From positions 930,001-994,000 of the forward strand of contig CP003801.1 in assembly GCA_000299115.1 (NCBI GenBank): a DNA stretch of 64,000 nucleotides. Reading direction: 5' to 3'. Below, piece after piece: positions 31,840 through 33,924 of this stretch. Both the position numbers and the translations under genes were made by a program. The notes beneath the pieces are model-generated. The model was not told the origin of the DNA. It worked only from the letters and a program-made list of their open reading frames with translations, and made no database searches. This DNA comes from an alpha proteobacterium HIMB59. GTDB taxonomy: Bacteria; Pseudomonadota; Alphaproteobacteria; HIMB59. Each line of letters begins with the position of its first letter. The first letter of the stretch is position 1.

Positions 31840-31880
31840 TTTTCAATATATTTGTAAATTTATTTCATTATAATTTTATT

Positions 31881-32153
31881 ATGGAAGATAACACTAATTT
31901 ATACAATCAAAGAAATATTTTAATACGTAACTTCCTTATTTTTTCTCGTCTTGCCCCATTAGTTACAAGCCTAATTGGTTCTATACTAATTAATAAGATT
32001 TTTCTTAAATCTGCAAATTTGATTAATCTTGATTTTATTTTAATTTTTTTATCTCTCTATTTGGTTCTTTATGTTTTTATTTCCCACACCAAGACGCTTT
32101 GTGAACAATTAGCTATTGTTAACCAAAAAATCGATACTTATAACGATTCATAG
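31881..32153 (+). CDS. Small two-helix membrane protein, unknown
   Basis: I do not recognise this 90-residue product. It begins MEDNTNLYNQRN, has two hydrophobic segments (about 22-42 and 48-69) and a polar C-terminal tail. A longer frame opens at 31821, but it would start inside the divergent MOSC gene and has a poor N-terminus, so the ATG at 31881 is preferred. A perfect 12-base palindrome lies on its stop codon. Confidence 0.55.
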   Translation: MEDNTNLYNQRNILIRNFLIFSRLAPLVTSLIGSILINKIFLKSANLINLDFILIFLSLYLVLYVFISHTKTLCEQLAIVNQKIDTYNDS

Positions 32154-32161: not shown

Positions 32162-32183
32162 ATATCTAATTTAAATTTTTCTT

Positions 32184-32212
32184 CTTTTATAGAGTATGAT
32201 AGTCTATAAAAG
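32184..32212. promoter_or_regulatory. 10-bp inverted repeat overlapping a likely umuD -10 element
   Basis: CTTTTATAGA (32184-32193) and TCTATAAAAG (32203-32212) are exact reverse complements separated by 9 bases. The spacer contains TATGAT (32195-32200), a good -10 hexamer, but no convincing -35 lies upstream. Such a dyad over a promoter is typical of a repressor operator. It abuts a separate LexA-type direct repeat. Confidence 0.6.
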
Positions 32213-32226
32213 AACAAAATATGAAC
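32212..32226 (+). promoter_or_regulatory. LexA (SOS) box, GAAC-N7-GAAC
   Basis: GAAC (32212-32215), seven bases, GAAC (32223-32226). This is the alphaproteobacterial LexA target (GTTC-N7-GTTC read on the other strand). It spans the ATG of umuD at 32221-32223, just downstream of the probable transcription start, so LexA bound here would block initiation or elongation. The context, directly on an SOS polymerase operon, makes the call strong despite the short motif. Confidence 0.75.
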
Positions 32227-32649
32227 AAAAATGAAGGAGATTTTAAGGGCAGCTTAACCCCCGTTCCTTATCTATTATCAAGAATTTCTGCTGGTTTTCC
32301 TTCCCCGGCGGATGATTATATAGAAAATAATTTAAGTCTGTCAGAATTGTTGATTAGAAACCATTTATCAACTTTTTTGATGAAAACGAGTGGAGACTCC
32401 ATGATGGATGTGGGTATTAATGATGGAGATATTTTAGTGGTTGACCGCAGTATTGAACCTAAAAATAGAGATATTGTCATTGCTATACTAGAAGGCAATT
32501 TAACCGTAAAGCGCTTACTTTTTAAAACGAATGGTTCAGTGGTGCTAAAGTCAGAAAATACAGCGTATAAAGATATCAAAATACCAGAGTCTGCAGACCT
32601 AGAGATATGGGGAGTGGTCACTAGTGCTATCCATCAATTTATTAAGTAA
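32221..32649 (+). CDS. umuD: UmuD-like SOS mutagenesis protein (S24 autoprotease)
   Basis: UmuD self-cleaves with RecA filaments to UmuD', which joins UmuC in DNA polymerase V. The 142 residues show AGFPSPADDY with the cleavage bond Ala24-Gly25 (Cys-Gly in E. coli), the catalytic serine in GDSMMD (about residue 60) and the catalytic lysine in TVKRL (about residue 98). Length equals the E. coli protein. The leader is almost absent: the LexA box overlaps the start, and there is no clear ribosome-binding site. It precedes umuC directly. Confidence 0.93.
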   Translation: MNKNEGDFKGSLTPVPYLLSRISAGFPSPADDYIENNLSLSELLIRNHLSTFLMKTSGDSMMDVGINDGDILVVDRSIEPKNRDIVIAILEGNLTVKRLLFKTNGSVVLKSENTAYKDIKIPESADLEIWGVVTSAIHQFIK

Positions 32650-33924
32650 ATGAATGTTGTGGCATTAGTAGACTGTAACTCGTTTTATGCTTCTTGTGAG
32701 GCTATTTTCAAACCTCATCTAAAAAATCAACCTGTAGTGGTTCTTTCAAATAATGATGGTTGTGTCATTGCGAGGAGTTCTTTAGCTAAAAAAGTTGGGA
32801 TTAAGATGGGAGTTCCTTTTTTTGAAGTTAAAGAATTAGTAAAACAAAATAACGTAAAAGTTTTCTCTTCAAATTATACTTTATATGCAAATATTTCTTC
32901 TAGGGTGATGGGGGTATTGAAAAATTATTGTGATGAATTGGAGGTCTATTCAGTAGATGAAGCTTTTTTGATTTTAAACAAATACTCTGAAAGAAGTTTT
33001 TTTCAAAGAGCAATGCAAATTAAAAAAACTGTTAAAAAATGGATTGGAGTTCCGGTTAGCATAGGTATAGCTAACAATAAAACACTATCTAAGATAGCTA
33101 ACCATTTAGCTAAAAAAGATGAACTAGGAACACAGGTAGTCGAATTATTAGATCGGCAACAAATAGAAATAGCATTAAAAGTATTAGAAGTAGGAGACGT
33201 TTGGGGGATTGGGAGTAGAATTTCAAAATTTCTTCAATCCAATTCAATACAAACAGCTTATGATCTATATTCTTCTGATCCAAGATGGGTACGACAACAT
33301 CTAGGAGTGGTAGGAGAAAGAACCTATCGAGAATTACACGGAGAGATGTGTTTTCCCATCATAGAAAGCCCTGAGGCAAAAAAACAATGTCGCGTATCTA
33401 GATCATTCGAGAGCTATGTTGAAAATTTCAAAGAACTTGAACAAAGAATTATTTCTTATGCAACGCGCGCATCTGAAAAAATAAGATCAGATCATTTGCA
33501 GGCAAAAAAAATAACAGTTTTTATCCGTTCCAATAAATTTAATAAGAAAAATCAACCCTATTATGGAGATAAAACTTATAGCTTCATTTCACCGACTAAT
33601 GATTTATTTGAAATAGTTCGCTCAGCAGTTAAGGCATTGAGTTCTATTTATAAGTCAGGAATAAAATATAAAAAAGCAGGGGTTTTGTTATCTGATTTAA
33701 GTAGCGAAGGCATTTATAATAGAGATTTATTTTTTCAGAGATCAGAGAAGGATCTACTAAAGAAAATAAAGGTGAATAGAGTTTTTGATCGATTAAATAG
33801 TAGGTATGGTAGCGGGACTATCTGCATAGCAAAAGAGAACTATGAGAAATTCTATCTTACGAGAAGAAAGAATTTGAGCCCCGCTTACACTTCAAATTTT
33901 TATGACCTACCTGTGGTTAATTAA
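32650..33924 (+). CDS. umuC: DNA polymerase V catalytic subunit UmuC
   Basis: A Y-family translesion polymerase. The 424 residues show VALVDCNSFYASCE with the first metal aspartate (about residue 6), YSVDEAFL with the DE pair near residue 101, and the helix-hairpin-helix region DVWGIGSRISKFLQ near residue 187, followed by little-finger and UmuC-specific C-terminal parts. It starts immediately after the umuD stop. It converges with the TrpB2-like gene, overlapping 8 bases. The base composition here looks less AT-rich than the flanking genes at 20-31 kb. Confidence 0.95.
   Translation: MNVVALVDCNSFYASCEAIFKPHLKNQPVVVLSNNDGCVIARSSLAKKVGIKMGVPFFEVKELVKQNNVKVFSSNYTLYANISSRVMGVLKNYCDELEVYSVDEAFLILNKYSERSFFQRAMQIKKTVKKWIGVPVSIGIANNKTLSKIANHLAKKDELGTQVVELLDRQQIEIALKVLEVGDVWGIGSRISKFLQSNSIQTAYDLYSSDPRWVRQHLGVVGERTYRELHGEMCFPIIESPEAKKQCRVSRSFESYVENFKELEQRIISYATRASEKIRSDHLQAKKITVFIRSNKFNKKNQPYYGDKTYSFISPTNDLFEIVRSAVKALSSIYKSGIKYKKAGVLLSDLSSEGIYNRDLFFQRSEKDLLKKIKVNRVFDRLNSRYGSGTICIAKENYEKFYLTRRKNLSPAYTSNFYDLPVVN

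Follow-up and report, generated by a model that had tools for sequence, protein, structure and literature searches.

A predicted LexA box at the umuDC promoter of HIMB59 and a possible contraction of the SOS circuit in its genus

Introduction

In the alphaproteobacterium HIMB59, the start codon of umuD lies within a GAAC-N7-GAAC direct repeat, and a perfect inverted repeat with 10-bp arms abuts it over the promoter. Whether one regulator or two would act on this short region is the question that the locus raises. A preliminary description recognized in the direct repeat an SOS box of the type bound by LexA, proposed a second dimeric regulator on the dyad and considered translation initiation at umuD to be unusual. 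The LexA motif of Alphaproteobacteria is GTTC-N7-GTTC (PMC8565304, PMC9578287, PMC3323433), and in phage-infected SAR11 the genes recA, lexA, umuD and umuC rise together (PMC12753301). No publication on the SOS response of HIMB59 came up in a literature search. Here, we analyze the window, the whole stretch of 64,000 nucleotides that contains the locus, within a genome that is a single contig of 1,410,127 bp, together with its relatives.

Results

The region lies directly upstream of umuD and umuC, which are directly coupled according to the open reading frames and their domain matches (Table 1). A residue check of UmuD placed the Ala-Gly cleavage site at residues 24-25, with Ser60 and Lys97 present, at the positions that they have in E. 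coli UmuD; this agreement in position supports the umuD start codon. With the UmuD cleavage site, the Ser/Lys dyad and the Y-family domains of UmuC all found, umuDC is, as judged from its predicted products, a polymerase V operon. The nearest named relatives of UmuD were MAGs labelled Pelagibacteraceae or uncultured Alphaproteobacteria. Upstream of umuD, positions 31878-32153 encode a 91-aa putative membrane protein that is conserved in the genus, adjoins a MOSC-domain gene and gave no Pfam match.

Table 1. Features of the umuDC control region and operon, in window coordinates
Feature	Position	Strand	Remarks
LexA (SOS) box GAAC-AAAATAT-GAAC, predicted	32212..32226	+	Overlaps umuD start codon; published-motif match and conservation
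Likely -10, TATAAA	32205..32210	+	Abuts the box; columns 97-100% conserved in the genus; putative assignment
Possible weak -35, TTCTTT	32182..32187	+	17 bp upstream of TATAAA; putative, from spacing only; TTCACT at the same spacing in L020
Alternative -10 of the preliminary description, TATGAT	32195..32200	+	TATTAT, TATGAT or CATGAT in most of the genus; not in L019-L021
umuD	32221..32649	+	142 aa; Peptidase_S24 (E 1e-29); A24-G25 cleavage site, Ser60, Lys97
umuC	32650..33924	+	424 aa; start codon immediately after umuD stop; IMS, IMS_C and DUF4113 matches
10-bp perfect dyad	32184..32212	.	Chance inverted repeat; chance level in simulation, left arm not conserved

The direct repeat was found where the preliminary description had placed it, as GAACAAAATATGAAC across the umuD ATG. 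It reproduces exactly the GAAC/GTTC direct repeat with 7-bp spacing of the alphaproteobacterial box, it sits at the promoter of an SOS operon (umuDC), and it is conserved at orthologues in the genus, a sister family and SAR11-type loci. Genome-wide, GAACN7GAAC occurs at chance frequency (26 sites, compared to 42 for a reversed-pattern control), but the umuD site is the only one of the 26 outside coding sequence and is conserved in relatives. The other 25 sites, all inside genes, were rejected as LexA boxes; those closest to gene starts adjoin genes for ferrochelatase, a putative methyltransferase, threonine synthase, MurJ and a CDGSH protein, which are not SOS genes. Near-matches to AAGAACAAAATATGAAC with up to three mismatches were also rejected, being located inside genes or overlapping the boundaries of non-SOS genes.

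Conservation in the genus was assessed on two samples. A set of 35 distinct aligned sequences was chosen by containing GAACAAARTATGAAC, so the box is fixed there by selection; independent evidence comes from the genus members retrieved solely by the similarity of their proteins, which carry the box wherever the start region is available (L098 and L099 end at a contig edge before it). Identity to the box was 15/15 or 14/15 in every genus member with the umuD start region in sequence, these sequences being related to one another rather than independent events. GAACAAAACATGAAC is carried by L068 and L072 and GAACAAAGTATGAAC by L019, with both half-sites intact, and umuD third codon positions are only 41-51% identical to the window, closest relatives excepted. 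All 35 distinct sequences have AAC as the second umuD codon, which the box-based selection likewise fixes there, and so do all genus members shown in the protein-only sample; AAC makes up 19% of the Asn codons in the window.

Beyond the genus, boxes also occur in family f2 of the same order. There, GAACAAAAGTAGAAC precedes umuD by 62 bp, GAACATATATAGAAC or a close variant precedes lexA by 15-22 bp, recA has GAACAAAAATAGAAC in its upstream region, and GAACAAAATAAGAAC or variants of it separate a gene resembling ribonucleotide reductase (named by eye) from a response regulator. At this last site (L110, L115, L117, L119 and L123), the response regulator is divergent and has Response_reg and Trans_reg_C domains. 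In f2 sequences upstream of recA (L139-L149, L151 and L152), the recA box is followed by one more stretch similar to AGAACAAAACGTGTAC, which contains an additional GAAC half-site. In SAR11-type loci L105-L108 the box closely precedes the coding sequence of umuD, and GAACN7GAAC lies upstream of most lexA genes sampled across the class. Since the distance from the start differs among f2 umuD, lexA and recA, the box is not a start-codon effect.

An alternative hypothesis is that the conserved block serves the promoter and the translation start only and that GAAC-N7-GAAC within it is incidental. The block does include the likely -10, the start codon and codons 2-4, and a pattern at chance frequency in the genome would fit such a reading; however, the sister family has the same 15-mer design at lexA, recA and umuD, placed elsewhere relative to the start, and the second codon of umuD is invariably the rare AAC, making an incidental pattern unlikely. 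The LexA-type identity of the direct repeat is instead supported by its conservation, by its match to the published motif and by the presence of lexA in the genome.

The claim of unusual translation initiation at umuD was not borne out. A Shine-Dalgarno-like 4-mer precedes only 13 of 70 window open reading frames (those of at least 100 aa, crudely called from the first ATG). By this standard umuD, which lacks one, is no exception in this genome, in which a short leader without such a motif is usual. In the genus, recA also has a hexamer resembling TATAAT near its ATG.

The dyad exists as described, as CTTTTATAGA-GTATGATAG-TCTATAAAAG, that is, CTTTTATAGA-N9-TCTATAAAAG, and its exact sequence occurs once in the genome. 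The window has one perfect dyad (arms of at least 10, spacer 3-20), compared to 2-5 per 64 kb in eight sequences simulated with a first-order Markov model of its composition. Searching the whole genome for TTTATAGA-N9-TCTATAAA with up to three mismatches returned fewer matches than the control (80/80 compared to 123/123). The arms are complementary at 10/10 positions in the window and at 9/10 in the closest relative L004, whose sequence in this part is identical to that of L068; L070 and L021 reach 7/10, and the remaining aligned genus sequences 0-6/10. The right arm is retained because it contains TATAAAA, the strongly conserved columns of the likely -10. The dyad, neither above chance nor conserved nor recurrent, is a chance inverted repeat with no role, and not one common to relatives. 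Dual control, in which LexA would occupy the direct repeat and another dimeric regulator the dyad, is therefore very improbable. The dyad is perfect, has a sequence that occurs only once in the genome, lies on the promoter and is nearly intact in L004 and L068, but it stands at chance level in simulation, its complementarity drops to 0-7/10 elsewhere in the genus with the box unchanged, and similar matches elsewhere in the genome fall below control. Thus, of the two motifs whose conservation in close relatives the preliminary description had made decisive, the direct repeat held up and the dyad did not.

That description had also tied its reading to the existence of a lexA gene, and one is present from G000:C1:1134329 onward, following moeA with overlapping ends. 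It encodes 193 aa with LexA_DNA_bind and Peptidase_S24 domains, an ISAG cleavage site and the Ser and Lys residues. The suggested genome scan for GTTC-N7-GTTC near recA and lexA returned no strict box at either: none was found at the lexA start in the genus members examined, HIMB59 included, nor at recA in any genus member examined. A box at both lexA and recA, the mark of a canonical SOS regulon, was thus found in f2 and not in the genus. GTTC-N7-GTAA next to recA in the HIMB59 genome, with two mismatches, was rejected because it is not conserved in the genus. A close match to the box, GAACAAAAGATGAAC (L002:1228-1242; G000:C1:1134053-1134067, minus strand), lies within moeA at a distance of 276 bp from lexA on its upstream side; it is common only to the HIMB59 genome and G009 and is either a chance match or an internal LexA site. 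Upstream of recA in the genus (L150, L153-L168), a conserved TTTACTATTTAnnATAGAATC stands right before the ATG, with a loose AGTA/TACT inverted repeat upstream; this region could be a promoter or another operator. The reading helix of LexA is KSKSSIFQY in the genus, in contrast to KSKSGIHRL in f2 and nearly all LexAs examined in the class, and its specificity may therefore have shifted.

Discussion

The region is very probably an umuDC promoter under LexA repression, of the type known from Alphaproteobacteria. As a predicted operator, the umuD LexA box is genuine and of an ordinary kind, an expected SOS element. The sequence itself shows the box and its conservation, a lexA gene and the catalytic residues; from these we infer binding, repression and induction as follows. 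LexA would bind the GAAC-N7-GAAC repeat directly downstream of the TATAAA -10, where it would cover both the transcription start and the start codon and thereby block RNA polymerase. Upon DNA damage, RecA filaments would trigger self-cleavage of LexA, and transcription of the derepressed umuDC would then give an mRNA whose leader is very short or missing. Self-cleavage of UmuD at A24-G25 would yield the UmuD'2C translesion polymerase. Counting against this reading are the altered reading helix of the genus LexA, the lack of a strict box at lexA or recA in the genus, and the partial overlap of box conservation with coding sequence and promoter.

As far as motif searches can tell, umuDC is the only promoter left with a strict box in the genus. 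Together, boxless lexA and recA, the single extragenic site and the altered reading helix suggest that the SOS circuit may have contracted to umuDC. This contraction is read from the absence of a motif, and the absence of a strict box is weak evidence because degenerate boxes or a shifted motif are possible at recA and lexA. We tentatively suggest, as a scenario plausible but short of probable, that in this genus of ocean bacteria LexA is no longer autoregulated, has a remodelled reading helix and represses umuDC only, with recA uncoupled from it. If so, DNA damage would induce mutagenic polymerase V and nothing else through the LexA route. Relatives within the order have retained the box at lexA, recA and umuD, whereas the genus has retained only that of umuDC, providing a testable case of SOS regulon contraction. 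The genus-level loss of the lexA and recA boxes is the part worth following.

Compared to known systems, the HIMB59 umuD box shares half-site, spacing and direct-repeat orientation with the Caulobacter crescentus-type alphaproteobacterial box (GTTC-N7-GTTC), and the classical target (umuDC) and a lexA gene in the genome are further points of likeness to alphaproteobacterial SOS systems. It differs in that the box overlaps the start codon, that the genus lacks a strict box at lexA and recA, and that the LexA reading helix is different. In E. coli umuDC (Pol V), the operator is a palindrome, whereas the predicted HIMB59 operator is a direct repeat and its leader is likely very short and free of a Shine-Dalgarno motif; the order and coupling of umuD and umuC are common to both.
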